Positions 6,239 to 29,406 of a stretch of 37,150 nt of DNA are shown piece after piece. The translations under genes were made by a program, and so were the position numbers. Origin of the DNA: a virus. A model generated the notes under the pieces. It saw only the letters and a list, made by a program, of their open reading frames with translations. It made no database searches and was not told where the DNA came from. The stretch spans positions 1 to 37,150 of IMG/VR virus record IMGVR_UViG_3300028596_000037; one strand, written 5' to 3'. Numbering within the stretch: position 1 is the first letter of the stretch; every line of letters begins with the position of its first letter.

Positions 6239-6249
6239 GGAATAAATAG

Positions 6250-9357: not shown

Positions 9358-10452
9358 ATGATCGACTCCAGCAACTTCGAGGTAGACGAAGCCACCTTCG
9401 AACTGCCTGACCTGCCACACGTCAACGTCATGATGGACGCGATGGATGACTCGGTTGACCAGATGAGCGACGACCCTGACGTCATCGACGGCACCGAGCG
9501 CCTGAACCTGACTGCCGCTCAGCGTTATGCTGAGGGTGTGCTGTTTGCCAACGGTATCGTTCGTGCTTCGGCATTGACCGGTAACGAAGGTGTGTTCTCC
9601 GCCATCGGTGATGGTCTGGGCGCTGTGTGGGACTTCATCGTGAAGACCTTCAAAGCGATCTGGAACTTCTTCTTTGCTCGCGACAACGACAAGATCGCTG
9701 ACGAGACCAAAGCAGGAATCGACGGTAACAACAAGGACGCCCAGGATGCCGCCAACGGCACCCAGTCCGACGAAGACGCCAAGAAGCAAGCAAGCAAGAT
9801 GGCTTCCATTGCCGCCGAAGGCGGTGATGCAGAACTGGCCAAAGAGCTGCGCGAAGCGAAGAGTCCGAAAGAACTCAAAGCTTCGATCAAGAAAGCTCTG
9901 AAGAAGATGGCTCACCTCAACGAGAAGGGCCTGGCCAAAGCCAAGAACGCAGTGAAGAACGCCATCACTGCTAAGAGCTCCTTCCTCAAGATCGTCAGCG
10001 ACGACAAAAACACCAAGTTGAATGATGCCAACGACAAGATGATGGAAAGCGACCACCCGGCCGCCCACCTGCTCATCGAGATGGAAGCAGAAATCAACAA
10101 GGCGATCACTCGTGACCACACCTTCATGCCCAAGCTGCAAAAGGCCATGGACCTGAAGGAAGTCAACGACATCGTCCAGTTCGGCAAAGATATCGACTCC
10201 AACGTCGAATCGATGCGTGGTCTGGGTCGTGCGTTCAATCAACGCAAATCCAAAATGCAATCGGTTATGGCCGAAACCGAGAAGCGTGCTGCTAAAGCAA
10301 AAGACGCCAAAGACAAAGCCGCACTGAAGCAAGAACTTGCTGCCCTGCGTGTCCTGGTTAACCAGGCTGTCAAAGTGTCCAAGCTGATCGAAGCTTCTAA
10401 CCACCGTCTGCTGGTTGCTCACACAGAACTGGTGGAGATGCTGGGTCTGTAA
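9358..10452 (+). CDS. Inner-body-like virion protein with G-x-E cleavage site (paralogue 1)
   Basis: 364 residues. The propeptide (1-77) is acidic and ends at GNE (75-77), matching the S/A/G-x-E rule of the phiKZ prohead protease. The predicted mature part starts GVFSAIGDG and forms an aromatic amphipathic helix ending in FFF (104-106). A long Lys/Ala-rich helical body follows. The motif YAEGVLFAN (57-65) recurs almost exactly in the gene at 27904 (247-255), which proves common descent. The family resembles the phiKZ inner-body proteins that are packed with DNA in the head. The switch from acidic precursor to basic mature protein fits DNA binding after cleavage. It ends before a strong hairpin at 10466. 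Confidence 0.7.
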   Translation: MIDSSNFEVDEATFELPDLPHVNVMMDAMDDSVDQMSDDPDVIDGTERLNLTAAQRYAEGVLFANGIVRASALTGNEGVFSAIGDGLGAVWDFIVKTFKAIWNFFFARDNDKIADETKAGIDGNNKDAQDAANGTQSDEDAKKQASKMASIAAEGGDAELAKELREAKSPKELKASIKKALKKMAHLNEKGLAKAKNAVKNAITAKSSFLKIVSDDKNTKLNDANDKMMESDHPAAHLLIEMEAEINKAITRDHTFMPKLQKAMDLKEVNDIVQFGKDIDSNVESMRGLGRAFNQRKSKMQSVMAETEKRAAKAKDAKDKAALKQELAALRVLVNQAVKVSKLIEASNHRLLVAHTELVEMLGL

Positions 10453-10465
10453 GTACCAAAGCATA

Positions 10466-10510
10466 TATAACCCCTACCCAGGCTCCCGAAGGGCCTGGGT
10501 AGGGGTTATA
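10466..10510. terminator. 18-bp perfect hairpin between convergent genes
   Basis: Bases 10466-10483 pair without mismatch with 10493-10510 around a nine-base loop. It lies 13 bases after the stop at 10452 and four bases before the end of the minus-strand polymerase gene at 10515. The symmetry suits a bidirectional terminator. T tracts are short on both sides. Confidence 0.8.
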
Positions 10511-10514
10511 GCTG

Positions 10515-12311
10515 TTATGCCGCCATTGGAAGCATTACTTCACCTTCTACTGGGTTCATCAGGATTTCACGACGACGACGCAGTTCTGCCAATTCATCGA
10601 CCATTCCCATTTCGCCCAGACGCTCTTCGAACACTGCTGCCATCTGATCTACTTCTGGGAAGCGGAACAGTTTGTGCGACAGGTTGATAGCATTAGCTGC
10701 AGGACTGCTGGCGTAGTTCACTGCAATCTCACGCAGCTGCATCTCGTCTGCACCTTGGATCTGATACACTTCCATCATGGTTGTATGGTTGCTGACGTTT
10801 TCGGTCAGTGTACCGGTTGGGTATGCACCCTCCACGTCCAAGTCGGAAGTAGCTGCTCGACCTTGGCTTTGAACATCGAACAGACCACCGAAGATAAACA
10901 TACCTTGGCTGGCGTTCTTCTCGGTATCGAGCAAAGCAATCCAATCGCCCAAACCAGGGAGACGGCTGGTGAAACGAGTATCGCGTTGCGAAGGAGTCGA
11001 ACCCCACACATAACCGTGGTCACGTGCAATGAAGCTAAGGGTGTCCGAGATAAGCTTAGGCTGCGACACGAAGTTGAAGTATTCGGAATAACGCAACAGC
11101 ATCGGCAACGACAAGGTGAAGTCGAAGGTCTTTTCATTGATCTCTTCGATAGGCCAGTTGTCAGCGATGTTGTAAGACGCATACAGATACTTGTAGTCGG
11201 TCTGCATACCACGGTGCCACTGTGGTGTGCCATTACCCCAATGACGTCCTTCGTCGGTGTACAGCTTGCCTGGTACTTCTTCGCGGTTGGAGATTGCTTC
11301 CAACGAATAGCTTTCCAACTTACCGAACGGGAAACGTTTAATAGCGTAAACAGACATTGCATCTGCCCACTGCCATTTCGCCATGGTCCGTACTGTTGGG
11401 AATTTCTCTTGTGGTTCCAGTGGCGTACGGTCACCGTTCTCTTTAACCTTGTGGGTACGACCCAGGTCCAGTTTGTAGTAACGGAAGTCTTTCGGAATGC
11501 TCTTGTCGCAATAGACCTCTTCGAGATCATAACCTTCACGACGCAAAGCTTCGTCACATGCAGTCATGTCATAGCTGGCATTCCACGACGCCACCCAGTC
11601 CGGTTCCCACTCATGGAACTTACCGATACAGGCTGCTACTACTTGACCCGGTGTGTCAAACAGTTCGTAGACGATCTTACATTGACGACGGTCGACGTGT
11701 TCTTTAAGGTACTTGTCTTCCGATTCTTTTAACTTGCGTAGGATCGTTTCATCGTCTTCTTCTTTGAACCAACTCCGTACCCCCGCCCAGTATGCTTTGG
11801 TCTTCATGGTGACCGAAGCCATCATAATAGGTTTGTCCGGATGGAACATATCCGCTTCAACGTCAAACGCTGCTAACGTGTACGGTTCCTTCTCCTGGAT
11901 CTCCCCATACTTCTCGAAGAACTTACGTTTAAAGTGTACCGGTGGTGTTTGGTCCAAACCGAATACATACTGTTCACTGCTAACGTCGCGAATAGTCGCT
12001 TTATAGTCGGCAGCTCCGTACAGTTGCTTCTTGACTTCAAATGGGATCTTACAACGGGGCAGGTTATACTCGCGCACCATCGAGTTACGAATGTAATCTT
12101 TGTGTTGCTTGAACTTCCGATGCGGTTCTTTAACGATCCACATCGGCTGTTTATAATTCTCCATCGCAATAAAAGAATTACTGCGGGTACCGTCTTCATG
12201 GATGTTGGTGATCTTGGCACACAACAGGTCTTTATTACGGTCAAATTTGTGCTTACTGTAAGCGGCACTCTTACAAACCCGTGCAACGACAGGCGAAGTG
12301 TTCTTGATCAT
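10515..12311 (-). CDS. B-family DNA polymerase, 3'-5' exonuclease part extending to motif A
   Basis: 598 residues. Proofreading motifs are all present: Exo I D150-V-E152, Exo II N244..Y247-D248 and Exo III Y380xxxD384. An FGG (474-476) stands where polymerases have YxGG. Polymerase motif A appears as DLDVEGAYP (490-498), like DxxSLYP. The protein then ends about 100 residues later without motif B (KxxxNSxYG) or motif C (DTD), so it cannot extend DNA alone. phiKZ-related phages such as OBP are known to encode exonuclease and polymerase portions as two polypeptides. The partner is not in this window. No continuation exists downstream, only a hairpin and structural genes. The ATG at 12311 faces the protease gene at 12390. 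Confidence 0.88.
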   Translation of the reverse strand: MIKNTSPVVARVCKSAAYSKHKFDRNKDLLCAKITNIHEDGTRSNSFIAMENYKQPMWIVKEPHRKFKQHKDYIRNSMVREYNLPRCKIPFEVKKQLYGAADYKATIRDVSSEQYVFGLDQTPPVHFKRKFFEKYGEIQEKEPYTLAAFDVEADMFHPDKPIMMASVTMKTKAYWAGVRSWFKEEDDETILRKLKESEDKYLKEHVDRRQCKIVYELFDTPGQVVAACIGKFHEWEPDWVASWNASYDMTACDEALRREGYDLEEVYCDKSIPKDFRYYKLDLGRTHKVKENGDRTPLEPQEKFPTVRTMAKWQWADAMSVYAIKRFPFGKLESYSLEAISNREEVPGKLYTDEGRHWGNGTPQWHRGMQTDYKYLYASYNIADNWPIEEINEKTFDFTLSLPMLLRYSEYFNFVSQPKLISDTLSFIARDHGYVWGSTPSQRDTRFTSRLPGLGDWIALLDTEKNASQGMFIFGGLFDVQSQGRAATSDLDVEGAYPTGTLTENVSNHTTMMEVYQIQGADEMQLREIAVNYASSPAANAINLSHKLFRFPEVDQMAAVFEERLGEMGMVDELAELRRRREILMNPVEGEVMLPMAA

Positions 12312-12389
12312 TGGACTACCTGCATTTTATGCCGACTTTTAGCGCTATACTCATGGCGCCCCAGTTAAACTAAAAAGGAGTATCGCGAT
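12312..12389. promoter_or_regulatory. 78-bp divergent promoter region
   Basis: This gap separates the polymerase (-) and the protease gene (+). It contains TTTTAGCGCTATAC at 12337-12350 with a TAGCGCTA palindrome at 12340-12347, and TTTATG at 12327-12332. AT-rich TATA-like cores also occur in the other two divergent gaps (5413-5452, 20485-20517). The AAGGAG at 12375-12380 serves the protease gene. Promoter function is inferred from position. Confidence 0.35.
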
Positions 12390-13751
12390 ATGATTTCAAT
12401 GGACTTCCTGACCGGCCCACGGGAGGGGATGGAATTTATTGATTTCCAGTCCGCGGACTTCTACGACAAACTTTCTGGGTTCCTCGAATCCAATATCAAC
12501 TCTGCAAACGTGCTGTCGAAAGACTCTGCAGAAGGTATACTGAAAATTGTTGAGGAGTTCACCGGATTCAGGAACGTCAAGATCCACTTCACCGAGACCG
12601 GTAACCTGGCAGTAAACGTGGCGTACTTCTCGCCTAACCACGTGTTCAACAGCGACATGGCTGAAGCCCTGCTCAAGCCTACGCAGTCGTCGTTGTACCA
12701 GTGGTTCACCCAGAACAAAGAAAAAGTCTTCAAAGGTTCGGTTAACTACCGGACAGGTAAAGTGGAAGGTGCCTTCCGCGACGTACCCATTGATCTCTAT
12801 ATCAACGTCAACCTCGACGCCTCCTTCCCAGCCGAACACCGTGACAAATACGGTGTCCCGATACACGGTCTGTTGGCCGGAGGGATCGCTCACGAGAAAG
12901 GCCATTGCTTCGGCGCTTGCGCATTGATGGCCACTGCGGTGAAGGATAACTTCCTCGCCAAAGCTGCGTTGACGTTCTATAAAACGCGCACCAACATCGA
13001 AGACCGTGTGGTGGTGTTGCAGGACATGAATAGCCTCCTGGATCTCAAACCAGCGAAGCAAAGTGAACTGCAAGCGCTCGCACAAGATGAAGACGAATCG
13101 ACCGCTATTATGTATTTCAACAAACTTGTGGTACAGCGCAATCAAACCCGCGCTCTGTCCCTGGGTGTTGAAACCATGTCCTCTGAGGTCATGGCTGATG
13201 CCTACGCGATCCGTATGGGTTGCGACAAGGCTATCCTGGCGGCTATCGGTACCTTCGTCGATAAAGGTTGTATCCAGGTCGTAATGGAATCCTTCATGGC
13301 AGCGTGCTTCTACACCTTGTTTGCAGGTGCCATGCTGTTACCTATCGTCCTGGAGATGATCGTAGCGGGAGCGCCGTTGGCTATCCTACTGATCACGGGT
13401 GTATTCACCTTTGGTATCGCGATGATCCTCGATTACTTCTTTAAAGGGTATTCTGGGATCTACAACGCCGGTCACCGTCGTTTCGAAGATGCCATGCGTC
13501 AAATGATCCACAAGTTGAAAGAAGTCAAGATGGACAGCAAGGAGAAAGCACAGCTGCTGCAAGACCTTGAGAAGTTCATCCAGATCAACAAGACCCTGCG
13601 TCCTTGGTACGACCAGACCATCACCCATCGTTTCTATGGCTGGCTGTTCAACGGTCGTGACTTCAAGCGTCAAGAAGTAGAACACTACACCCAAGCTCTC
13701 GCCAACAACGAAATGAACGTATTGGCTGAAAAACTCAAAACCCTCGCCTAA
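12390..13751 (+). CDS. Membrane-anchored HExxH metalloprotease, M48-like
   Basis: 453 residues. HEKGH at 168-172 follows a hydrophobic helix (GLLAGGIA) and is the zinc/catalytic motif of gluzincin proteases. E266 in SSEVMAD (264-270) has the ExxAD form of the third zinc ligand in family M48 (HtpX, Ste24). Residues ~297-350 hold two hydrophobic segments long enough to cross the membrane. After them, GHRRFEDAM (361-369) recalls the HPxxxxR segment of M48 proteins. The last 80 residues are charged helices. The phiKZ prohead protease is a serine enzyme, so this is a second, different protease. Its place directly upstream of inner-body-like genes suggests a role in virion maturation, ejection or the host membrane. 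The start at 12390 has AAAAGGAG upstream. The fold call is fairly firm; the role is unknown. Confidence 0.7.
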   Translation: MISMDFLTGPREGMEFIDFQSADFYDKLSGFLESNINSANVLSKDSAEGILKIVEEFTGFRNVKIHFTETGNLAVNVAYFSPNHVFNSDMAEALLKPTQSSLYQWFTQNKEKVFKGSVNYRTGKVEGAFRDVPIDLYINVNLDASFPAEHRDKYGVPIHGLLAGGIAHEKGHCFGACALMATAVKDNFLAKAALTFYKTRTNIEDRVVVLQDMNSLLDLKPAKQSELQALAQDEDESTAIMYFNKLVVQRNQTRALSLGVETMSSEVMADAYAIRMGCDKAILAAIGTFVDKGCIQVVMESFMAACFYTLFAGAMLLPIVLEMIVAGAPLAILLITGVFTFGIAMILDYFFKGYSGIYNAGHRRFEDAMRQMIHKLKEVKMDSKEKAQLLQDLEKFIQINKTLRPWYDQTITHRFYGWLFNGRDFKRQEVEHYTQALANNEMNVLAEKLKTLA

Positions 13752-13763
13752 GGAGTCGCGCAC

Positions 13764-14177
13764 ATGTCGCATCTGGCCCTCGTTATCAAATGCAAGCAAG
13801 AACTGGCAGAAGCTGGTGTTCTGTGCGCCGTTCAGCAATCCGAGCTGCTGAGCGAAGCTTACATCCGTGCAGGGATCGCCTACATCCACCGTCACGGTAA
13901 CGTCCTCACCCAGGACATCGAGAAACGTATCTGGAAGATGCTGGACAAGTGGAACTCGGTTTCCCCGATCAACGCTCCCTTCATCAACCAGTCGATCATT
14001 CAGCGTCTGAACCTGCTCCAAGGTGCTCTGGCCAACTTCGGCGCACTGCCTTGCCCGAAAGCGTTCACTGCGGTGGCTGAACTGCCGGAAGAACGTTCCC
14101 TCGACGTCGGCAAACAAGCCTGGTTCCAAGACCTGGTGGATTACCTGGTAAAAGAGATGGAGGCTTGCCATGAGTGA
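13764..14177 (+). CDS. Small helical protein of unknown function
   Basis: 137 residues, helical, with two cysteines near the N-terminus (C12 and C22) and one near the end. No family is recognised. AAGGAG lies eight bases before the ATG and includes the stop of the protease gene. Its 3' end overlaps the next gene by eight bases, so protease, this protein and the inner-body-like protein at 14170 form one translational unit. It may act as a chaperone or partner for one of them. This rests on position only. Confidence 0.7.
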   Translation: MSHLALVIKCKQELAEAGVLCAVQQSELLSEAYIRAGIAYIHRHGNVLTQDIEKRIWKMLDKWNSVSPINAPFINQSIIQRLNLLQGALANFGALPCPKAFTAVAELPEERSLDVGKQAWFQDLVDYLVKEMEACHE

Positions 14178-15702
14178 TGAGGCTGGCGCCCAACTCGATT
14201 CTTATAAACAGATCGACCATGCCAACCCCACCGATGGTGTAAAACCTGGCGACGGCGAACAGCGTATCGACCTGACCGAGTACTACAAAGAGACCGGTCA
14301 GGCTGAAGGCACTGTAATGATGCAGGGTTACGAAGAGATCAGCCTCGGACGTCTGTCCAAGCGTATTGCAATGCTTATCAAGCTGCAGGGGGCTGAGGCC
14401 TTCGATCCCTTCCCTTCCGAACGCAACACTGTCGCCGGGCAAGAAGGTTTCTTCCACACAATCTCCGAGAAGTTCAAGGAGATGATCGAAGGAATCATCA
14501 AGTACATCAAAATGGCGATCAACTGGATCATTGACACCGTTAAGAGTTTCTTCGGTTTCCGTAAGAGTGCGCGTATCACTCGGGAGATTGATGGGAAGCT
14601 TGCGGAACTCAAGGAACAGTTCGAAGAAACCATGCTCGGTCTGGGTTTCCCGAAAGACCATTACAACGTTGAGAACTTCCTCGGTACGTTGCCTGCTGGT
14701 AAGAACGTCAAGTTCCAATTGCTGCTGTTAAAGAGCAAGTTCGAAACTGACCAGGAAAGCATCGACGGTATCAGTGCTGCCCTTCCTCTGTTGGCGCAGG
14801 CAGTCGGTAAGCTGCGTCAGTCAAATGACAAAGCCATGGCGGCTACCAAAGGCCTGAAGAGGGTCATCAACGAAGAGTACACCCGTACGCGGGTACGCAA
14901 GTCTACCAACCAACGTGTGGACAGCCAGAACTCTACCGAAGCCAACCGCATCACCAAGGCTATCCAGGAAGTGAAGACTGCCCTGGACACTGATCCTATC
15001 GTTGATATCCTGGGCAAGGTCTTCGAGACCCTGTACAAGATCAAGTTCAGCAACGAAGAGCTCAGTAACGGTTTCGATAAGGTTCGTACTCAACTGCGGA
15101 ACAGCATCAAGACCGAAACAGTCAAGATCGCCCCGCAAAACGTTACTCACTTGCTCACCGGTATTCAATACCTGAACAAGCGTTATCTGGAAATCTCGGA
15201 TAACGAAGTGGACCTGTCGAGCATCAACTGGAAAGCTTTGGGCGATGTGGTCGATAAGACGGATTCCGACAAGATCAAAGCCATGGCTGACTACTACGGT
15301 TATCCTGCACTCCTGGCTAACTACCAGGGGATGACTGTGGAAGTTCGTAACTTCGTTCAGTACTGCTTCAACGTGTCGAACTCGTTGATGACCGTGCAGA
15401 AGCAAGTCGAGAACTTGGTAGGCTGGTACAACCGTACCCACACCTACTTCTACGCTGGCGTGATGGAAGACATCGATACCTTGATCGCCATGGTAGAAGA
15501 TGCCAAGTCCAAAGGTCACAGTCCCCTCCTCAACAAACACGGCTTGCCGCAACAGCTCTTGTTCATCAAGGAAGCTGATGCGCTGACCCTGATGGAGAAA
15601 CTGTCTTCTAACCTTAACTTCGCTATCGAGAATGATGTGGCGGGTGTTAAGACGTCGATCAACAATTTCTCCAAACAAATCGGATGGGGTAAACAGATAT
15701 GA
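14170..15702 (+). CDS. Inner-body-like virion protein with G-x-E cleavage site (paralogue 2)
   Basis: 510 residues. The propeptide (1-92) ends in AGQE (89-92). The predicted mature N-terminus starts GFFHTISEKF and continues as an amphipathic helix to about residue 130, ending in a phenylalanine-rich turn (SFFGF). This order (G-x-E, then an aromatic helix ending in FF) is shared with the proteins at 9358, 25405, 26827 and 27904. The rest is a long helical body with many Lys, Asn and Thr residues and a Tyr-rich section near 395-440. By family it should be packaged in the head and processed by the prohead protease. It overlaps its neighbours on both sides (8 bases upstream, ATGA downstream). Confidence 0.65.
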   Translation: MSDEAGAQLDSYKQIDHANPTDGVKPGDGEQRIDLTEYYKETGQAEGTVMMQGYEEISLGRLSKRIAMLIKLQGAEAFDPFPSERNTVAGQEGFFHTISEKFKEMIEGIIKYIKMAINWIIDTVKSFFGFRKSARITREIDGKLAELKEQFEETMLGLGFPKDHYNVENFLGTLPAGKNVKFQLLLLKSKFETDQESIDGISAALPLLAQAVGKLRQSNDKAMAATKGLKRVINEEYTRTRVRKSTNQRVDSQNSTEANRITKAIQEVKTALDTDPIVDILGKVFETLYKIKFSNEELSNGFDKVRTQLRNSIKTETVKIAPQNVTHLLTGIQYLNKRYLEISDNEVDLSSINWKALGDVVDKTDSDKIKAMADYYGYPALLANYQGMTVEVRNFVQYCFNVSNSLMTVQKQVENLVGWYNRTHTYFYAGVMEDIDTLIAMVEDAKSKGHSPLLNKHGLPQQLLFIKEADALTLMEKLSSNLNFAIENDVAGVKTSINNFSKQIGWGKQI

Positions 15703-16418
15703 CCTGGGAACAAGTCCTCGAAGAGAAGGTCAAGGCGGAAGAGAGTGTCCGTCAAACCTGCGAGAACACCAAAGCCTTCATGAAAGAAGTGCAAGGTGGT
15801 CTGAAGCTTGCGGTGGCCAAACGGATCATTGAAAAGATCTGGGGCATGGGTGTACAGGGTCGCAAGATGGTGGCGCAGTTGTCTGCCAGTTTCCCTGAGC
15901 GTAACGTAGAAGTCATTCGTTACGAGAACCTGCCCAAAGAAGCCATCCCCAAGTTGGTGGGTCACGTCGAGCCTTGCCAGGCTTTCTACAGGGTCGCCTT
16001 TGAGTATATCAATGAGCTGATCAAAGAGATCCTGGAACTGTGTCAACGTGCAGACGCCAACGACCAACTGGCTCAGCGGCATTTCAACGAGATCCGCAAG
16101 AACGTGTTGAAGTATGTCGACATCGTGCTTTACGATTCGGTGAACTTTGCCACTATCCAGGCGGCTACCAAATGGGCTGATCTGAACCTGTCGTCGATCC
16201 GTGTTGATGACGGTGACTACATGTTCATGACCGAGTTCCAGGAAGAAGTAGGACGTGCCCAAGATGACGTTCTACGTCGTATGCACACCTACGGCGATAA
16301 CTGGACGGCCATCAGTTCGATCGAGTACCACGAAGAGGATCACTTGCACCAAATCAAACTGGTGTACCTGTTCGCGGAATACTTGCACAACCTGGTAAAA
16401 CCACCAGCGGCTGAATAA
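15699..16418 (+). CDS. Helical structural-type protein of unknown function
   Basis: 239 residues, helical, acidic towards the end. It starts within the stop of the inner-body-like gene (ATGA), so it is coupled to it. The segment DDVLRRMHTYGDNWTAIS (about 190-207) loosely resembles the short LysM-like or gpX-like turn of tail proteins (D-x-L-x-x-I-x-x-x-YGD-x-x-W). The match is weak and could be chance. It is the last gene before a 15-bp convergent hairpin. Confidence 0.7.
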   Translation: MTWEQVLEEKVKAEESVRQTCENTKAFMKEVQGGLKLAVAKRIIEKIWGMGVQGRKMVAQLSASFPERNVEVIRYENLPKEAIPKLVGHVEPCQAFYRVAFEYINELIKEILELCQRADANDQLAQRHFNEIRKNVLKYVDIVLYDSVNFATIQAATKWADLNLSSIRVDDGDYMFMTEFQEEVGRAQDDVLRRMHTYGDNWTAISSIEYHEEDHLHQIKLVYLFAEYLHNLVKPPAAE

Positions 16419-16423
16419 GCGAC

Positions 16424-16459
16424 TATACCCTCCTGCCCCGTTAAGGGCAGGAGGGTATA
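16424..16459. terminator. 15-bp perfect hairpin between convergent genes
   Basis: TATACCCTCCTGCCC (16424-16438) pairs exactly with 16445-16459 around the loop CGTTAA. It separates the plus-strand stop at 16418 from the minus-strand stop at 16469. No clear T tract follows on either strand. Position and symmetry suggest a bidirectional terminator. Confidence 0.8.
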
Positions 16460-16468
16460 TAGCTGCAC

Positions 16469-20484: not shown

Positions 20485-20517
20485 TTCGCTACTTCCTAAA
20501 TATAGAGGTATTCTTTC
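20485..20517. promoter_or_regulatory. 33-bp divergent gap with AT-rich core
   Basis: Only 33 bases separate the starts at 20484 (-) and 20518 (+). The core CCTAAATATAGAGG (20495-20508) carries a TATA-like element together with both ribosome sites (AGAGG on plus, AGGAAG on minus). A promoter in both directions would have to sit here or inside the genes. No sigma70-type pair is evident. Confidence 0.3.
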
Positions 20518-21642
20518 ATGATTGGACCAGTTCTGAACTTTGGTTCTTTACTGCTGGGTGTCGTAAGCAAGTTTTACCCAGATAGCAAAGACATAACGTC
20601 TGCCGCAAACGTCGCAGACCGGGTCGCGCATTCATACAATGTGGTATCCACCACCTCTGTTCACGAGAGCGCACAACGCTCTGTAATCGCCCCAATGGTG
20701 GCGATCGAGGCCGGTGCGGTACACCAGGAATACATGAGCGATCTCATCCAGATCATCATGTTGCGTGACATCGTCGCCACCCTCACCCACCTGTCGCTCC
20801 AGGGTAGCCTGGGCATGGGTGTCAAGGTTGAAAACCTCATCGGTTCGATCAACCCAAAGCGTGCTGGTCTGCTGGCGCTGGCCGGTATCGAAGCCATGGA
20901 TACCAACATCCGTGCCGGTAACGAAGAAGCCAAAGTTCCTGAAGTCCTTAAAGCTGACGACGGCGTCGAATACGTCAACGTCGGTGGCAAGTCGATGCCT
21001 GACCTGGCCGAATACGTTCCGCTGGCTGTCGGCAAAACTGTGCTGGCTTCGGTACAAGCCGAGAACGGCAACAAGTACGACTTCCCACTGACCTTCCGTC
21101 AGATCCCTGTGCCGATGAGCATGAAGGACCTGAAGTTGGTGTTCAGTGCGGCCAAGTCGGAAGATGGCATGTTTGCCCGTATGCTGATGGTCAAGACCGG
21201 TGAGATCACCGTACCTGATCTGATCTCCGGCAAGGACATCATCAAGGAACGCTTCAAGATCAAGAACGAGGACATGTCCGGTTACTACCGTGAAGCCATG
21301 GCCCGTGAAACTAACAACCGTATCGCTGCTGTGCGTACCGGTGTGATCAGTGTGAACAACCTGGCGAACTCGTTCGTGTTTACCCAGGACGGTGCTACCC
21401 AGCTGGAACTGGAAGTCGGTAAACGTTTCTCCAGCCCGTCTGCCCGCGCTGACATCTTCAAGGCGGTCAAGGCCAACACCATCGTCGTCTGCAACGAAGA
21501 CCGCGGTATGTTCACCTTCTACACCCACGGCGAAACCATGCCAGCGGTATACACTCGTAAAGACCTCGCAGTCAAATCGAAGAAGGACGTAGGTTCCAAC
21601 TCGATGGCTGACCTGGTCAAACTGCTCAACGGAGGTGTTTGA
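20518..21642 (+). CDS. Virion-type protein of unknown function
   Basis: 374 residues. The N-terminus (residues 1-20) is hydrophobic with glycine but ends in a Lys/Asp section. Residues 60-125 are helical with many Ile, Leu and Met. The second half mixes helix and strand. No family is recognised. Codon use is strongly C/G-ending, as in the most biased genes here, so it is probably abundant. AGAGG at 20504-20508 is nine bases before the ATG. Its stop overlaps the next start (TGATG). It opens a long cluster that ends at 29804. Confidence 0.75.
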   Translation: MIGPVLNFGSLLLGVVSKFYPDSKDITSAANVADRVAHSYNVVSTTSVHESAQRSVIAPMVAIEAGAVHQEYMSDLIQIIMLRDIVATLTHLSLQGSLGMGVKVENLIGSINPKRAGLLALAGIEAMDTNIRAGNEEAKVPEVLKADDGVEYVNVGGKSMPDLAEYVPLAVGKTVLASVQAENGNKYDFPLTFRQIPVPMSMKDLKLVFSAAKSEDGMFARMLMVKTGEITVPDLISGKDIIKERFKIKNEDMSGYYREAMARETNNRIAAVRTGVISVNNLANSFVFTQDGATQLELEVGKRFSSPSARADIFKAVKANTIVVCNEDRGMFTFYTHGETMPAVYTRKDLAVKSKKDVGSNSMADLVKLLNGGV

Positions 21643-22529: not shown

Positions 22530-23035
22530 TGACCGAGTTCGCGCTGGTATCCAATGGTTTCGTGGCGAGTGGGATTCCTGATGCCGAACTGACCGGTATT
22601 TTCAAGAATCTCAAAGCCCTCAAGAAAGACAGTTATGTTGACTTCACTGTTGTGCTCAAAGGTCATATGGCCGTTGAAGTTATTCGTTGCGTTCGTCGTC
22701 TTACTGGCGATTCCTTCCGCGATTGGATGAAAGCCAACAGTGATGGTCCGATCGGCCCGCTGGTCCGCGACCTCCTCAACTACTTGAATGGCAAGGTGGG
22801 TTACCACACGGTACACTCTTCCATTGCCATTCAGGAATCCCGATTGACCCAGGTCGATCATTTCCACTCGGCTGTTTATACCCCGACTACCCGTCAGGAA
22901 AGTTCCTTGGAGCCGCTGTTGAAGCAAGGCATGTCTTTGCATGACTATGACTTCTATCGACTCATGGCAGGCATCGGTGCGGTGGACATCGCCCGGATCT
23001 TCTTACTCTTAGGCGGGGAGAGCTACTATGCCTGA
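22529..23035 (+). CDS. Small protein of unknown function
   Basis: 168 residues, mixed helix and strand, with two or three hydrophobic stretches near the ends but no clear membrane segment. No family is recognised. It is wedged between overlapping neighbours: its ATG shares the previous stop (TGATGA), and the next gene starts eight bases before its own stop. Codon use is less biased than in the genes just upstream. Coupling suggests it acts with the 23028 product. Confidence 0.7.
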   Translation: MTEFALVSNGFVASGIPDAELTGIFKNLKALKKDSYVDFTVVLKGHMAVEVIRCVRRLTGDSFRDWMKANSDGPIGPLVRDLLNYLNGKVGYHTVHSSIAIQESRLTQVDHFHSAVYTPTTRQESSLEPLLKQGMSLHDYDFYRLMAGIGAVDIARIFLLLGGESYYA

Positions 23036-24338
23036 CGCAAGCGAACTTCAACTGGCTGCCGAGATGGCGGTTATCTCCACAGCTAAGTCTGCCGAACTGG
23101 TGGAGCTGGCTGGGAGTACCGACCGCCTGCAGCGCATTCAGGAGGACCTCGACGACCGCAAAGACAACGTGGAAATCGTGAAGCGTATCCTGACCGCCAC
23201 CCAACCTCATCAGTTGGACATGGCGGAAGCAGAACGCATCGACCAGCGTCTGGAACGGGCTGAGGTAGAGATCCCTGCTGTGAGTGAAGCAGAAGGGGTT
23301 CTTGGAGCCGAATGCCTGGGCCGTAGTCTGATGGTCAACGATTTCTTCACTACCCGTCTGATGGGCTGTGAGAACTTCCTGGCTAACTTCTACCAGCAAG
23401 CACGTCAGATCACCCAGTTGATCGGCGCAAACTTCAAAGAAGTCTACCTGGTCCTCACCGAAAGTGTCGACAGCCTCGAGAAGCAAGTGGATCTCCTGGA
23501 GAAACAAATCCAGGCGGCACCCAACTTCAAAGCTGGTACTGACCGTATTGCCCTTGGCGTGCGTCTGTACAACCTGCTCAAGGTAAACGGCAAGATCAGT
23601 GAAGACTGGGTCAGCAACATCAGTAAGCTGCACAGCTCTATCCAGGGCCTGAGCACCAACTATTACCTGAACAGCAAAAACAACCTCAACGCCACCCTGA
23701 GTTACTTCGGTGGTTTCGCTGACGTTGATGATGTGGCAGGTAAGGAACGCTTCTTGTTGCTGCCGAAGGCTATCCCTTCGACTCGCTTTAAGGAGTGCAC
23801 CTACCCGAACCGCGACAACAGCACTAACACTGTGTTGGCGAAGCAATCGGTAGAGTTGATGGGCGGCGCTTACTTCGTTGACGGTCGTCGCGAGAAAGTC
23901 AACCTGGAACCGAAAACGGTCGAGCAGGTAGAAGGTTACATCCAGGGCTACGTAGATTTCGATTTCACGGGCTTTGAGAACAAATCCACCGTAGAGTATC
24001 CGAAAGTCGGTACTGACGTTGCTACGCTGTCCGCTGAGTCCATTAAGGTCATCTGCAAACAGCTGCGTGACATCATCAAAAACTGGCGTAAGGCATTCGA
24101 GGGTGATCACCGCTACAAGCTCGAAGATAGCGACTACAACGATGTCGTCAAAGGCATCTATGAGTCGGCCATGTCGGAAGAGATGAAAAGTCGTGTGCGT
24201 GATGCTTTCAGCACCATCGTACGCAAGAACCAGCTGGAGCTGCTGACCATCCGTGCGGCGGTAAACAACTACCTGGTTCTGGTCTTCAACGGCATTATCG
24301 AGCTCGCCAATACCTCGATTCGTGCTAACGAACCGTAA
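23028..24338 (+). CDS. Helical virion-type protein of unknown function
   Basis: 436 residues. The N-terminal 90 residues are a charged helix with coiled-coil spacing (LVELAGSTDRL, ERIDQRLERAE). The middle has strand-like parts (residues ~200-330) and the C-terminus is helical. AEGVLGAE (about 87-94) contains possible S/A/G-x-E cleavage positions (AEG/GAE), but the aromatic helix seen in the inner-body-like proteins does not follow, so processing is uncertain. The start overlaps the previous gene by eight bases. GGGGAGAG ahead of the ATG gives a usable ribosome site. Confidence 0.7.
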   Translation: MPDASELQLAAEMAVISTAKSAELVELAGSTDRLQRIQEDLDDRKDNVEIVKRILTATQPHQLDMAEAERIDQRLERAEVEIPAVSEAEGVLGAECLGRSLMVNDFFTTRLMGCENFLANFYQQARQITQLIGANFKEVYLVLTESVDSLEKQVDLLEKQIQAAPNFKAGTDRIALGVRLYNLLKVNGKISEDWVSNISKLHSSIQGLSTNYYLNSKNNLNATLSYFGGFADVDDVAGKERFLLLPKAIPSTRFKECTYPNRDNSTNTVLAKQSVELMGGAYFVDGRREKVNLEPKTVEQVEGYIQGYVDFDFTGFENKSTVEYPKVGTDVATLSAESIKVICKQLRDIIKNWRKAFEGDHRYKLEDSDYNDVVKGIYESAMSEEMKSRVRDAFSTIVRKNQLELLTIRAAVNNYLVLVFNGIIELANTSIRANEP

Positions 24339-24351
24339 GTAGGAGTCGGAC

Positions 24352-25356
24352 ATGAACGAGACCAAATGGCTGTACGCCACCGGTATGGAACACCATGTCG
24401 AGTTGGTAGAAGCCAACCATCAGCTGACGAAGCTGTCAGAAGTCCTCCAAGGTCAGATCGTTGGCAACGAGGATTACCAGGAAGTCTTGAGCGGCCTGGG
24501 TGACGGGCTGAAGTCGTTAGGCTCGGGATTGTTCACTTCGGCTGCCTGGGTTACCGGTAAAACGGTAGGTATCTTCGCCAAGGCCCTCGGAGGCACTGGT
24601 AACTTGCTGGTAAGGGCGTTCGCTGATAACGACGTCCTCATCAAGAAACTCGTCCAACAGTTCTCTAAAGGTGATGAGCATGAGATCAAGTTCTCGAAAG
24701 AGAAACTGGCCATGCTTACTGCTGATGGCGATGCGGATGAATTCAGCAAAGACATGGACACCCTGCTGCGCACGCTGGAGCAACTTGACAAGCACGGTAA
24801 GGATCTCCTGACGTTCCTCGACAAGCGTATGGCAATTGCCCGTAAGCTGAAAGGGGTAAAGACCACGGAAGATCTGTTCGCTGTGATTGACGAGAACGAG
24901 AAGCTGCAATACCCAGCTCCTCCTCTGGCGCATACCAGCGGTGACATTTCCAAGTCGGATACCCTGCCTGGCGGTAAAGTGATTGAATTCGATCATAAGA
25001 GTTTCAAGTATCTTATGAACGGAGATGCTCCTGAGTCCTCAGGGGGCAGTGTCACTATGTCCAAATCCGACGTGAGCAGTGTGCTCTCCAAACTGGACAA
25101 AGTGAACAGCATGCACAAACGCGTGAAGTACACCTACGATTCTTACTTGAGCTTCATCAAGACTTGGGGCGAAATGGTCAAGTCGGTGGAGGAAAACTTA
25201 AGCAAGTTGCAGCGGGTTAGCAAGAGCGCGTTGAACGATGCTGAGAAACTGTTAGGTGGTGAACCTGCCGCTCTCGCATTTTATAGCGGATTCACCCCTC
25301 GGGTAGTCAGCTATACTGACCGGTACATTCATGGTGTACTCGGTGTTTTCGTGTGA
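24352..25356 (+). CDS. Possible divergent member of the inner-body family (paralogue 3)
   Basis: 334 residues. A short propeptide would end at VGNE (37-40). The following residues (41-90) form a Gly/Ala-rich amphipathic helix: DYQEVLSGLGDGLKSLGSG, then a longer hydrophobic run with VTGKTVGIFAKALGG. The G-x-E plus helix order matches the paralogues at 9358, 14170, 25405, 26827 and 27904, but the helix lacks their FF ending, so membership is less certain. The remainder is helical and Lys-rich. GTAGGAG lies before the ATG. Two 12-bp palindromes separate it from the next gene. Confidence 0.6.
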   Translation: MNETKWLYATGMEHHVELVEANHQLTKLSEVLQGQIVGNEDYQEVLSGLGDGLKSLGSGLFTSAAWVTGKTVGIFAKALGGTGNLLVRAFADNDVLIKKLVQQFSKGDEHEIKFSKEKLAMLTADGDADEFSKDMDTLLRTLEQLDKHGKDLLTFLDKRMAIARKLKGVKTTEDLFAVIDENEKLQYPAPPLAHTSGDISKSDTLPGGKVIEFDHKSFKYLMNGDAPESSGGSVTMSKSDVSSVLSKLDKVNSMHKRVKYTYDSYLSFIKTWGEMVKSVEENLSKLQRVSKSALNDAEKLLGGEPAALAFYSGFTPRVVSYTDRYIHGVLGVFV

Positions 25357-25390
25357 AACGTTTCAAACACACAATTCCTTCGTTAACGAA
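25354..25390. promoter_or_regulatory. Two 12-bp perfect palindromes before the 25405 gene
   Basis: TGAAACGTTTCA (25354-25365) and TTCGTTAACGAA (25379-25390) are perfect 12-bp palindromes, the second ending 14 bases before the ATG at 25405. The first overlaps the stop of the previous gene (25354-25356). They may be protein binding sites, RNA hairpins or processing sites. No function is known. Confidence 0.4.
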
Positions 25391-25404
25391 ATAAGGATCT
25401 GTCA

Positions 25405-26703
25405 ATGGACATTTTCAACCAATACGCTGGCGCCGAAGAACTGGGTCTGGATGAAGGCGCTGCCTCCGTGGCCGAAGCTGCAGGCGACGCTGCTGAAGCT
25501 GCTGTATCCGCCGAAATCGGCGAAGTGACCGCGGCGCTCGAAGAGCAAACCGCCGAGATCGAAAAGCTGGTCGACAAGGTCGATGACCTGGAAGACGCCG
25601 TCGAAGAAGTCGAAGAAGCTGTTGAAGGCATGGAATCCATGCTGAACTCCGGCAACTTCCACTCGGTCTCCTTCGCCAACATGTACAACCGTGCGCTGAA
25701 GCTGGCTGAAAAGCTGCCTGCTCCGGAAGGCCAGATCATGCTGGGCGACCGCGTTGGTGCCGAGAACATGACCGACGCCGCTACCGCACAGCTGTTCGCC
25801 CGTGCCGGTATCGAATCCTTCGTCGAGCGCGTGAAGGAATACGGCAAGAAGGCCGTCGAGTTCATCAAGCACATCTTCAACCAGGTCATCAACTTCTTCG
25901 TCAGCCTGTTCAACAAGGCCGATGGTCTGACCCGCCGCGAAGCTCAGCTGCGTAAGCGTCTGAACGACGGCGCCAAGATCCGTGACAAAGTCAAGATGGG
26001 CGGCTGGAACGTCTACATCGACTACGCCACCGACGGCCTGAGCAAAGGCTCGAAGAAAGACAAAGGCAACTTCGACAAGACCACCAAGGCTGTTGCCGAT
26101 CTGGTCAAGGCCGCCCAGAAGGGCTCCAGCATGACCGTGGCCGACATCAAGTCGAAGCACGCTGCCGTTGTCACCGCGATCAAAGCGGACGCCAAAGAGT
26201 TCGGCAAGTACAACGAGAAGAAGAACGGTTCCAAAGACGTGATCCTGTCGCAAGCGGCTGGTATCCGTGCAATGGCCAACTTCTCCGAGCCGACCATCAA
26301 CAACTTCGCCGAAGCTGCCGCGGCCATCCGTTCGATCAAGCTGCAGATGGTCAAGGCTCCGGAAGCCAAGAAGATGTCCACCGGCGAAGTCAAGGCCAAG
26401 GCCGACAAGGCTGCTCTGGTTACCGTCCTCGACGGCGTCAAGGGCACCATCGCCGAAATCCGCAGCGACGAAACCGCCAAACTGATGACCGCTTCTGCGC
26501 GTGATCAGCTGGTCGGCACCCTGAACAACATGAAAGCGGGCAACAGCGACAAGTCCGCCGAAATCGATGGTCAGGTCAACGTCGTGAAGGCTGCTTGCTC
26601 CCTGGCTGCTCAGGTTGCTTCGAACACCAACAAGCAGCGCATCAACTCGGCCGGCGCCCACCTGGATGCCGTCGCAGCTCACCTGAGCTTCGGCAGCAAC
26701 TAA
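25405..26703 (+). CDS. Inner-body-like virion protein, probably most abundant (paralogue 4)
   Basis: 432 residues. The propeptide (1-137) is very acidic, with an Ala/Glu coiled coil (45-78), and ends in AGIE (134-137). The mature part starts SFVERVKEYG, continues as an aromatic amphipathic helix to NFFVSLFN (163-170), then a Lys/Ala-rich basic body. Precursor acidity and mature basicity fit a protein that packs DNA only after cleavage. Codon use is the most C/G-biased in the window. The gene also has its own leader palindromes and a strong UUCG terminator, all pointing to very high expression. phiKZ inner-body proteins are its likely relatives. Confidence 0.7.
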   Translation: MDIFNQYAGAEELGLDEGAASVAEAAGDAAEAAVSAEIGEVTAALEEQTAEIEKLVDKVDDLEDAVEEVEEAVEGMESMLNSGNFHSVSFANMYNRALKLAEKLPAPEGQIMLGDRVGAENMTDAATAQLFARAGIESFVERVKEYGKKAVEFIKHIFNQVINFFVSLFNKADGLTRREAQLRKRLNDGAKIRDKVKMGGWNVYIDYATDGLSKGSKKDKGNFDKTTKAVADLVKAAQKGSSMTVADIKSKHAAVVTAIKADAKEFGKYNEKKNGSKDVILSQAAGIRAMANFSEPTINNFAEAAAAIRSIKLQMVKAPEAKKMSTGEVKAKADKAALVTVLDGVKGTIAEIRSDETAKLMTASARDQLVGTLNNMKAGNSDKSAEIDGQVNVVKAACSLAAQVASNTNKQRINSAGAHLDAVAAHLSFGSN

Positions 26704-26721
26704 GTAGCACTGCGTCACTAG

Positions 26722-26770
26722 TAACTACCGGGGGCCTTCGGGTCTCCGGTAGTTATTCCTTTATTTTTTT
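26722..26770 (+). terminator. Strong intrinsic terminator with C(UUCG)G tetraloop
   Basis: Stem 26722-26731 pairs with 26746-26755 and continues inwards through G-U and G-C pairs to a C(TTCG)G loop at 26736-26741, the most stable tetraloop known. A T-rich tract follows (26757-26772). It ends transcription after the 25405 gene. Confidence 0.92.
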
Positions 26771-26786
26771 TTGCATTTTTATTGAG

Positions 26787-26804
26787 ATGCTATAGGTTAA
26801 CCTA
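26787..26804 (+). promoter_or_regulatory. TGCTATAGGTTAA motif overlapping a 12-bp palindrome
   Basis: TGCTATAGGTTAA (26787-26799) recurs with one change as TGCTATAGGCTAA at 34829-34841, also in the gap before a cluster and just after a hairpin/T-tract. Here it overlaps the perfect palindrome TAGGTTAACCTA (26793-26804). It follows the UUCG terminator and precedes the ribosome site (GAGG, 26815-26818) of the next gene. It is a candidate phage promoter or operator. Confidence 0.4.
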
Positions 26805-26826
26805 ATTATCCACTGAGGCATTGGTC

Positions 26827-27900
26827 ATGACCGATACTGTCCTGGCGAGGCGCTTTGTTAATACGCCCACGCTGAAAGAAATTTGGGAACAAGAACACAG
26901 CGCTACTGAAACGGAAGTCGCGGACGAAGAGGTCGATAAACTTTCTGATGAGTATGATCGCTCGTCTGGGATGGAAGGTTATTACCAACTGTGCTTCCAA
27001 CACCTGCAAAGTCCACACCGTGCTGTTTTTGTAGACGGTAACGAAGGGTTCTTTGAAGAGATCGGTAAAGGGATTAGTTACGTTATCGATCAAGTCAAAC
27101 GCTTCTTTAAATGGGTGTTTGGTTTCTTCACCAGTAAGAAGCGCGCCGCAGAGAAGACGTCTGATACCCTGCGTCAATCTATCCATAAGCACGGAGTTAA
27201 ACCGTGGGAGATTGAATACCCTAAAGACTACTGGGTGCTCTGGGGTAAACCGGGTAATCCAGGTAACGACCTCGGCTGGATGTCAAAGAGTATCGACGGT
27301 TATGTCGAGTCGATGAAGAAATGTAAAGAGTACGTCGAGGCAGTCAAGAAGTATTGCACTGACGTTTCACAGATCTCCATCAACAACGAAGGCAATATCG
27401 AGAAAGGTAAGAGCACGTTTGAGAACGTCGCAGAAGCCCTCGATAAACAGATTCGTTCGATCTTCAAGCCTGGTCCTTGGATCGGCGGCCAAACCCTGGA
27501 GATCAAAGAAGGTAAAGTCCTGATGCGCCCTGATCCTAAGATCAAGGCCACCAAGACCCTGAAGTTCAAAACCAGTGAGAAAGTTGTTCTCGATATCCTC
27601 GACAAGGTCGATGTGGCTGTCGATGACTTCGGTAAACTGGTAGTCGATATCTGTACAGCTGAAACCAAAGCTACTGCTTTGCTGGAGCACGTTGGTCAGT
27701 TTGCCAATGCGGCTAAAGAAGCCGGTAAACAGAAACAAATGAATGCCTTGATCGAGAAAGCCAAGAAGTCGATCAACAACATGATGGCCGCCCTGAAGAG
27801 TCTTCAGGGGATGTACTTCCGTCTGATGACGGTGAGTATGAACATTCTGCGTGCCACGGTGAAGTCTCCTGGCGATCAAGAAAAACCTACTAAGGAGTAA
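26827..27900 (+). CDS. Inner-body-like virion protein with G-x-E cleavage site (paralogue 5)
   Basis: 357 residues from the ATG at 26827; GAGG (26815-26818) lies eight bases before it. A TTG six bases earlier is in frame but lacks spacing. The propeptide (1-73) is acidic and ends in DGNE (70-73). The mature part starts GFFEEIGKGI and runs as an aromatic helix to FGFFTSKKR (98-106). A Lys-rich helical body follows, with some strand around 190-240. Codon choice is more mixed than in the 25405 gene, so it is probably made in smaller amounts. It shares its transcript with the genes to 29804. Confidence 0.7.
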   Translation: MTDTVLARRFVNTPTLKEIWEQEHSATETEVADEEVDKLSDEYDRSSGMEGYYQLCFQHLQSPHRAVFVDGNEGFFEEIGKGISYVIDQVKRFFKWVFGFFTSKKRAAEKTSDTLRQSIHKHGVKPWEIEYPKDYWVLWGKPGNPGNDLGWMSKSIDGYVESMKKCKEYVEAVKKYCTDVSQISINNEGNIEKGKSTFENVAEALDKQIRSIFKPGPWIGGQTLEIKEGKVLMRPDPKIKATKTLKFKTSEKVVLDILDKVDVAVDDFGKLVVDICTAETKATALLEHVGQFANAAKEAGKQKQMNALIEKAKKSINNMMAALKSLQGMYFRLMTVSMNILRATVKSPGDQEKPTKE

Positions 27901-27903
27901 TCC

Positions 27904-29406
27904 ATGCGGGCTTATATGGAGTTGGGGCTGGTTGGATTACTGCTTAGCGGTGACGACCGTCCTACTGAGGAACAAAACCCTCAACTGTTTGCTGTACTTC
28001 GTGACATGGGCTTTAACGCCTACTGGAACGAAAGTAAAGAAGAGCTGGTCCAACACGGCCTGCGTCTTCTGGATGTCATCGATACCCAGTTTGAGTACTT
28101 CGATGCATCTGAGCTGAAAGTTAACCGTTTGACCGACAACTACTTGAAAGAGTTGTTTGATCAACTTGGTAACCACTACCGGGAAAACACCCGCGTAATC
28201 TCCATCAGTGTTTGTGCCCTGGGCAACAAAGCTGATAGTGAAGGTTGCACTGACGGGGTAGAACAGTTCCTGGATCGTGCTAAGGAGATCATTGAAGACC
28301 TCTGCGAGAAGTTCGAAGAAGGTACGGGGTTCAATGGTTTCCGTGTAGTGATCGACGAGTTGATGTATATCGAGAAAGTGCTCGGTATCGTCGACGTGTT
28401 TGTCACCAGTCACCTGGGTATGTTGGCGGGTGTGGAAGAATTTGCTCCTGTGGACTTCAACGACGTCCAGCCTGTTCAGGTAGTGGACTGGCATGCAGGG
28501 TTGGAGTGCAACGACACCAACGAGTGTGAGTGCGGTTGTCAGGAACCGGAAGAGGACGAGACCGAAATCCTCGACCACCCTATCCAGTTGCTCCAGGGCT
28601 TGGAAGACTTGCTCAACGGCGTAGAGACTCCTGCAGCTAAATACGCTGAAGGTGTGTTCTTTGCCAATGACATGAAACTGCGTGCATTGGCAGGTAACGA
28701 AGAAGGGGTACTGGATTCCATCAAGGAAGCCGGTATTAAGGCTTACGAGTGGTGCAAAGATGTCCTGGCGTCGTTCTTCGACTTGTTCACTTCGAACACG
28801 GAGAAGGCCAAGGAAGTAGCTGAGACCATGGCTGACGTTGCAGAGACCAACAAGAAAGCTCTGCAGGCCATGGAGAAGAAAGGCTCGGCTATCAATGATG
28901 CCGCCAAGAAAGGTATCTTGGCTCTGGCGGCTAAAGCGGATCCTTCGGGTGGTATGGGTCGCGTGGTAGGTGGTTTGAATACCAGTAACGACGGTAGCCG
29001 TGTAATCGACGGATTGATGGCTCTGTTGAAGAAAGCCGGTACTGCTGACACCAAGGTGCAGGAAAAGCTGAAAAAGGCTCAGACAGCCTTGGATGAGCTT
29101 AAAACGGCTAACAACAAAGCTTCTTCGACCAAAGGCGATAACAAAGAAGTTAACGCCAACGTCAAAGCTAACGTCAACGAAAAGATCAAAGCTGCCCGTG
29201 AAGCCATCAAAGGTATCAAGGCTGAAGCTAAAGGTCACGGTGCCCGGATGAAAGCCATTGAAAAGGCTATCCGTGGCATTACCCCTGCGATCTTCACCAA
29301 GGCGACCGAAGGTGCAGCAGCACCTAAATCCGAAGAGAAACCCGCTAAAGTCGCCAAGCCAGCAGCAACACCTCCTGCTGCCCCAGCCAAAGGTAAGAAG
29401 AAATGA
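27904..29406 (+). CDS. Inner-body-like virion protein with long propeptide (paralogue 6)
   Basis: 500 residues. The propeptide (1-266) is unusually long and acidic. It contains a cysteine cluster (C202, C208, C210, C212) followed by an Asp/Glu stretch. YAEGVFFAN (247-255) matches the protein at 9358 almost exactly, and AGNE (263-266) is the predicted cleavage site. The mature part starts EGVLDSIKEAG, continues to an FFDLF turn (291-295), then becomes Lys/Ala-rich. The C-terminal 40 residues are Ala/Pro/Lys low complexity. A propeptide this long may have its own role before cleavage. Its stop overlaps the next start (ATGA). Confidence 0.7.
   Translation: MRAYMELGLVGLLLSGDDRPTEEQNPQLFAVLRDMGFNAYWNESKEELVQHGLRLLDVIDTQFEYFDASELKVNRLTDNYLKELFDQLGNHYRENTRVISISVCALGNKADSEGCTDGVEQFLDRAKEIIEDLCEKFEEGTGFNGFRVVIDELMYIEKVLGIVDVFVTSHLGMLAGVEEFAPVDFNDVQPVQVVDWHAGLECNDTNECECGCQEPEEDETEILDHPIQLLQGLEDLLNGVETPAAKYAEGVFFANDMKLRALAGNEEGVLDSIKEAGIKAYEWCKDVLASFFDLFTSNTEKAKEVAETMADVAETNKKALQAMEKKGSAINDAAKKGILALAAKADPSGGMGRVVGGLNTSNDGSRVIDGLMALLKKAGTADTKVQEKLKKAQTALDELKTANNKASSTKGDNKEVNANVKANVNEKIKAAREAIKGIKAEAKGHGARMKAIEKAIRGITPAIFTKATEGAAAPKSEEKPAKVAKPAATPPAAPAKGKKK

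Follow-up and report, generated by a model that had tools for sequence, protein, structure and literature searches.

Inner-body or ejection proteins of phiKZ-like jumbo phages are made with leaders that a prohead protease (gp175 in phiKZ, gp245 in SPN3US) removes C-terminal to the glutamic acid of an [SAG]-x-E motif. Several cuts can fall within one leader, and in SPN3US gp53 and gp54 the new N-terminus starts an amphipathic helix. In T4, with gp21 and the capsid targeting sequence, head proteins are likewise reported to be cut after glutamic acid with loss of their leaders (PMC5694885), but at L/I-X-E (PMC9026906) and with leaders of only 10–20 residues (PMC5694885). Sequence divergence in this class of jumbo-phage proteins is so fast that homologues are hard to recognise; the authors of the SPN3US work placed EL gp54 beyond the detection limit from phiKZ gp86 (PMC5694885). 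Here we describe an N-terminal maturation cassette with G-x-E sites that recurs in at least seven predicted head or inner-body proteins encoded between positions 9358 and 29406 of the virus record IMGVR_UViG_3300028596_000037, whose 37,150 bases are called the window in the following. The record, which is classed as a fragment and does not hold the prohead protease gene, comes from an EL-like jumbo phage of the chimallin group, EL and OBP both being listed as chimallin-encoding (PMC10299810).

Compared with the phiKZ-like system, the EL-like sites have Gly at position P3, as against A-X-E in SPN3US and S/A-X-E reported for phiKZ (PMC9026906), and the cassette is found on at least seven proteins, several of them without detectable relation to phiKZ proteins. 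The L/I-X-E sites and 10–20-residue leaders of T4 internal proteins are not found in the cassette proteins, which have G-x-E and leaders of 40–266 residues. The processing of inner-body proteins is already known in phiKZ-like phages. New are the sharing of one cassette by at least seven unlike proteins and the strict P3 Gly shared with the capsid protein and the protease, neither of which was found in the open-licence literature searched.

Results and Discussion

We consider it likely, from the sequence comparisons given below, that at least seven head or inner-body precursors share this cassette and that it is cut by the phage's own prohead protease during head maturation. In the predicted layout, a leader of acidic character would come first, then an upstream G-x-E and, after a short linker, a second G-x-E; G/S-F would follow this site and lead into a helix that is amphipathic and in most cases aromatic. 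All seven genes lie on the plus strand and are named by their first position. The first (9358..10452, position of EL gp050) has GTE 45–47 (9490–9498) and the main site GNE 75–77 (9580–9588) ahead of a helix at about 78–107; it matches phrog_21850 (5.5e-43). The second (14170..15702, position of EL gp054 and phiKZ gp86) matches phrog_14541 'virion structural protein' (8.8e-124) and combines GYE 53–55 (14326–14334) and GAE 74–76 (14389–14397) with the main GQE 90–92 (14437–14445) and a helix at about 93–133. A cassette-like protein (23028..24338) follows with GAE 93–95 (23304–23312) and the main GCE 113–115 (23364–23372), and another (24352..25356, position of EL gp062; phrog_15369, 4.2e-95) with GME 11–13 (24382–24390), which is weakly conserved, the main GNE 38–40 (24463–24471) and a Gly/Ala-rich helix. 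The counterpart of EL gp063 (25405..26703; phrog_5750 'internal head protein', 6.4e-84) shows GAE 9–11 (25429–25437), GME 75–77 (25627–25635), GAE 118–120 (25756–25764) and the main GIE 135–137 (25807–25815), followed by the helix. The sixth protein (26827..27900, position of EL gp064) carries GME 48–50 (26968–26976), the main GNE 71–73 (27037–27045) and a helix at about 74–104. In the seventh (27904..29406, position of EL gp066; phrog_27616, 1.3e-77) a leader of 263 residues includes GLE 232–234 (28597–28605) and is followed by the main GNE 264–266 (28693–28701) and the helix.

Six of these seven proteins had been named in an initial annotation, and their main tripeptides as well as the predicted new N-termini GVFSA, GFFHT, DYQEV, SFVER, GFFEE and EGVLD could all be verified. 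It had overlooked the 23028 protein with its GCE, the paired upstream sites, and conserved sites in two further genes (GME-15 in 12390 and GIE-125 in 20518). Its motif YAEGVxFAN is indeed present in two proteins, as YAEGVLFAN (9358) and YAEGVFFAN (27904), where it lies between the two predicted cuts. Five aromatic helices had been described as ending in FF; FF is present in five, but the ending does not hold across the 27904 orthologues. The leader of the 27904 protein also contains a cysteine motif, C-x(5-8)-C-x-C-G-C or a close variant (about 28507–28539), in 28 of 29 ortholog rows. It would be lost at maturation and may serve in metal binding or in tethering of the leader.

For each family we aligned the best matches from 39–40 loci (four named phages and contigs) after removal of identical sequences (9358, 6; 14170, 9; 23028, 10; 24352, 9; 25405, 10; 26827, 3; 27904, 1), of BLAST matches below 60 bits (9358, 3; 25405, 1; 26827, 2; 27904, 3; none in 14170, 23028 and 24352) and of matches not covering the site (one each in 24352 and 27904, none in the other five). 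The remaining rows are related, so that their percentages are not independent; near-identical rows remain, and EL is present twice in the 27904 family (L001 and L035). A main site of the form [GAS]xE is kept in 198 of 199 rows (9358, 26/27; 14170, 30/30; 23028, 29/29; 24352, 29/29; 25405, 28/28; 26827, 28/28; 27904, 28/28), with GxE proper in 28/29 for 23028. The single exception, L044 in the 9358 family, has its GNE displaced by one column. P3, paired sites and leaders were counted over 205 rows, one of 206 being left out as it has no site: P3 is Gly in 204 of them, and a second GxE lies 12–60 residues upstream of the main site in 192.

The seven window proteins contain 25 GxE, and conservation of at least 95% was found for all 7 main sites, for 8 of the 14 upstream and for none of the 4 downstream tripeptides. 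The same rows act here as their own control, no downstream GxE being kept at this level. No GxE is conserved at 95% in the control neighbours 8532, 13764, 15699, 21639 and 22529 either; 12390 and 20518, which had also been taken as non-cassette controls, were dropped for this question as a GxE is fully conserved in both. Six of the seven families have a conserved upstream GxE: GTE in 27/27 rows of 9358, GYE in 29/30 of 14170, GAE in 29/29 of 23028, GME in 28/28 of 26827, GLE in 28/28 of 27904, and in 25405 all four GxE including the main GIE in 28/28. The upstream GME of 24352 is kept in 13/29 rows only, and since this family is also absent from the profile described below it is the weakest case of a cassette. 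Other [SA]xE in the cassette proteins are mostly not kept, apart from SVE 274 (23028) and SDE 40 (26827).

The distribution of the motif differs between leader and mature part, with 414 GxE seen versus 159 expected in the leaders and 178 versus 255 in the mature parts. The mature parts fall below the shuffled expectation in the 14170 (19 versus 52), 24352 (19 versus 44.5), 26827 (16 versus 34) and 27904 (2 versus 20) families, a pattern that would fit selection against unwanted cuts. Net charge is negative for the leaders in 200 of 206 rows, and for the mature parts it is positive throughout in the 9358, 25405 and 26827 families only.

A profile of site plus helix (A1), built from 26 rows of EL-like sequences only, connects the predicted sites to mapped cuts. 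In the window it matches at 9580 and 27037, both proteins contributing their own row to the training set. SPN3US and phiKZ together gave four matches (E 0.003–0.03), namely gp53 and gp54 of SPN3US and gp93 and gp86 of phiKZ, and nothing further at E up to 1. Three of the four are in register with an [SA]xE, the glutamic acid at model position 3 falling on gp53 E125, gp93 E156 and gp86 E116. For gp53 the cuts AQE-95 and AQE-125 have been mapped, and gp53 and gp54 are reported to be cut immediately ahead of the peptides GWKETLKDLFER and SLWDDIK (PMC10052503 Table 2). The cut reported for phiKZ gp86 is SQE-122 (PMC5694885), which would correspond to SQE-116 of the revised gene, with a shift of six from the revised start, because the sole other SQE is found at 338. 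For gp93 the reported cut is SLE-13 (PMC5694885), and the A1 register points to SLE-156. When whole families were compared with single proteins by hhalign, the links were mostly weak: 14170 matched phiKZ gp86 in register at 3.6% and 25405 matched phiKZ gp93 at 55.9%; the 9358, 26827 and 23028 families gave no link to single SPN3US or phiKZ proteins. The A1 matches in OBP, Miami and pTD1 have G-x-E, 13 of 14 in register; the exception, OBP L079, is shifted but has a GME close by. Three matches in Goslar have V, V and A at P3, which is a hint only; they sit in much longer proteins (L092 20884–23688 and 1118–4495). Cassette proteins were also seen outside the main cluster, as EL gp165, CF8_0210 and OBP gp262 (L012 2030–3085, L015 1946–2917, L093 1020–2108), where they adjoin DarB-like or SNF2/helicase genes. 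The glutamic acids proposed as cut sites in the initial annotation are conserved and in register with mapped SPN3US and phiKZ cuts, and are very probably prohead-protease sites, the cutting itself being deduced. The S/A/G-x-E specificity that it had ascribed to phiKZ is wider than the S/A-X-E reported for this phage, and the strict Gly at P3 is therefore a feature of the EL-like lineage.

The same preference is visible in the capsid protein and the protease. SPN3US ATE-130 of the capsid protein aligns with EL GAE-120, RisingSun GNE-101, FishSpeaker GAE-101 and CF8 GME-90, and all four read G-x-E-[GS]-F exactly at this position. A homologue of the SPN3US protease gp245 was found in 12/12 relatives searched, and all of the 11 EL-like proteases have either GLE or GCE at about residue 207, with a second GxE near 250 also kept. 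From these alignments it follows that the motif is G-x-E in the EL-like group, in the capsid protein and the protease as well as in the inner proteins, and A-x-E in SPN3US.

Published proteome data of RisingSun allowed a look at the presence of cassette proteins in phage preparations. Nine RisingSun genes have a profile match, six of them training rows, picked before the proteome table was read. Seven of the nine proteins (gp5, 59, 68, 71, 72, 73 and 189, orthologues or paralogues of the window proteins) are among the 31 proteins detected in a crude-lysate analysis, compared with 24 of the 234 others (Fisher p 8.6e-6). The RisingSun paper lists gp5, 59, 73 and 189 among the proteins found also for EL by another group.

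The initial annotation had regarded these proteins as one expanded family, and here our analysis leads to a different picture. Full-length families are linked by hhalign (9358–26827 and 9358–27904 98.7%, 9358–14170 97.0%, 25405–26827 95.0%, 9358–25405 94.9%; further pairs 88.9, 85.3, 78.8 and 75.9%; the remaining 12 of 21 pairs at most 36%), 23028 and 24352 being only weakly connected with the others. Without the cassette the best of the 21 pairs reaches 14.9%; when cassette families were paired with neighbouring families as a control, the best of 49 pairs gave 2.3%. Because most of the profiles link through the cassette and no relation could be detected among the bodies that follow the helix, sequence comparison describes a shared cassette and not a single protein family. 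That all are paralogues of one inner-body family, multiplied by duplication and no longer recognisable as related except in the cassette, is possible, though we would not assume it: tandem copies of the 9358 type, three in one contig (L033 19056–22300) and two in several others, and the long 9358–26827 alignment with the cassette (29–356 versus 32–338, 98.7%) argue for it, and the values of at most 14.9% for the bodies alone argue against it. The comparison with hidden Markov models of phiKZ inner-body proteins, suggested in the initial annotation with the absence of a link as a refuting outcome, gave such a link for two proteins; its other refuting outcome, uncut proteins in virions, was not encountered, sequence comparison offering no test of it. 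PF12699 (phiKZ_IP, gathering cut-off 27 bits) includes 25405 (103 bits, 2.8e-29) and 23028 (135 bits, 5.1e-39) as members; 27904 stays below the cut-off (16.5 bits) with a match confined to residues 266–314 (profile 91–139) and thus to the cassette, and 9358, 14170, 24352 and 26827 had no match to this profile. Models of the 9358 and 25405 proteins gave no Foldseek match in the PDB at E 0.001 or better, and low-ranked matches to ABC transporters and helical toxins were discarded as helix-bundle noise.

For the mechanism we propose that the precursors would enter the prohead uncut and that the prohead protease would then cut after the glutamic acids, so that the leader would fall into short peptides and the helix would become the new N-terminus, by analogy with the mapped SPN3US and phiKZ cuts. 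The protease of the EL-like lineage would require Gly at P3; the capsid protein, the protease and the inner proteins all have G-x-E. The role of the helix is the weakest step. The best 18-mer helix moment in the seven window proteins is 0.52–0.69, compared with a median of 0.44 and a 95th percentile of 0.65 for 310 background segments; being only modestly above background, it was rejected as proof of a special helix. A combined charge/moment score gave 0.2–1.3, lowest for 24352 and 27904, where the usual lipid-binding threshold is about 1.3. Because the helices, though amphipathic, differ in charge and moment from typical lipid binders, we tentatively favour a role in packing the mature proteins against each other within the inner body. 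An AlphaFold model of the 9358 protein (pLDDT, predicted local distance difference test, 86) is all-helical, with a helix 83–133 beginning just past the cut and both sites outside long helices.

The leader, linker and helix might instead bring the precursor into the prohead core in the manner of the T4 capsid targeting sequence, the cutting merely discarding the signal. This would agree with a cassette common to proteins with unrelated bodies, with the acidic leaders, with the conserved linker of the 9358 family (about LT-AQ-Y--GVL-A-G, 'AQ.Y..GVL.A') and with T4 propeptides being described as targeting signals (PMC10052503), but we favour it less, since the most widely shared part is the helix, which is kept in the mature protein and would be needless for a discarded signal. 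Less likely in our view, though a serious rival, is a role at the membrane, in which the amphipathic helix freed by the cut at the N-terminus would act on the inner membrane of the host at ejection and aid DNA entry or formation of the early (EPI) vesicle. The helices are amphipathic and aromatic, injection of inner-body proteins has been reported (PMC13282480), EL and OBP are listed as chimallin-encoding, and SPN3US gp47, at the position of 14170, has a transmembrane helix predicted by its authors (PMC5694885) and a hydrophobic stretch after its expected cut ALE-111. Against this stand the scores given above, unlike those of typical lipid-binding helices, and the 9358 model, in which the helix is predicted to continue into the body as one helix of 51 residues. 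SPN3US lacking the protease is reported to leave its proheads at the inner membrane (PMC7411985), which could be explained by packing, membrane action or targeting alike. Rather improbable, finally, is a wider proposal in which the cassette would serve the whole phage clade for activation: a single cut in the prohead would expose membrane-active N-terminal helices on many precursors that had been inert, and after ejection these proteins would help to build an entry channel or early membrane vesicle, and where the P3 preference of the protease would have changed together with all substrates (Gly in EL, OBP, Miami and pTD1-like phages, Ala in SPN3US, Ser/Ala in phiKZ, Val/Ala in the Goslar matches).

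Several points weigh against processing of the cassette as proposed. Cleavage in the window phage and in EL-like phages is deduced from homologues, the conservation rows are relatives including near-identical pairs, and the number of GxE per protein is about the shuffled expectation without any excess, for which reason counting was discarded as evidence and conservation is the test that matters. The 23028 mature parts are richer in GxE than expected (66 versus 36.5), and an AlphaFold model of the 25405 protein (pLDDT 77) places the main site within a predicted helix 125–148. The gp54 match of A1 is out of register (its first residue, 138, falls on model position 15), A1 finds nothing in 201phi2-1 even though its gp148 is reported to be cut at SQE-113 (PMC5694885), and the SPN3US protease auto-cut AQE-203 lies near the EL-like GLE but in a different column. 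For RisingSun the material analysed was a crude lysate, in which gp8 and gp69 went undetected. That the N-terminus has just a conserved fold to which G-x-E and helix belong, with a coincidental likeness to a protease motif, as the chance number of GxE and the 25405 site in a helix might suggest, is nevertheless very improbable given the in-register match to mapped SPN3US and phiKZ cuts, the same G-x-E in the capsid protein, the paired sites and the enrichment in leaders only.

Two genes on the plus strand of the window encode further predicted substrates without the cassette helix. The 12390..13751 protein (position of EL gp052) has GME 13–15 (12426–12434) and keeps a GxE in 29/29 rows; GME-15 falls in the same column as ASE-20 of SPN3US gp45 (hhalign 5e-12), which is a mapped cut (PMC10052503 Table 2). 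The 20518..21642 protein (position of EL gp058 and SPN3US gp50) has GIE 123–125 (20884–20892), a GxE in 29/29 rows, and is homologous to SPN3US gp50 (hhalign 3.3e-16) and phiKZ gp89 (2.9e-25); GIE-125 and the ATE of gp50 lie in the same region but in different columns. The tail gene of the window (16469–19459, minus strand) matched 272 phage records and is nearest to phage EL and relatives (51.6% identity). Gene order around it is the same as in the phiKZ-like system, and the order RNA polymerase beta subunit, DNA polymerase, tail genes, internal head protein and DnaB-like helicase is identical in EL, RisingSun and FishSpeaker; CF8 has the same order from RNA polymerase to helicase with changes. 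Long antisense open reading frames at 6235–7947 and 25402–26718 (both minus strand; 570 and 438 residues) run nearly full length over real genes and are probably codon-bias shadows.

Conclusion

In a group of proteins whose homologues are hard to recognise, a short cassette profile made from EL-like sequences recovers phiKZ gp86 and SPN3US gp53 at their mapped cuts and flags candidates for inner proteins in OBP, Miami, pTD1 and Goslar. Which proteins are processed should therefore be predictable from sequence, together with their exact mature N-termini. The preference for Gly moreover predicts a measurable difference among the proteases of EL-like phages, SPN3US and phiKZ.

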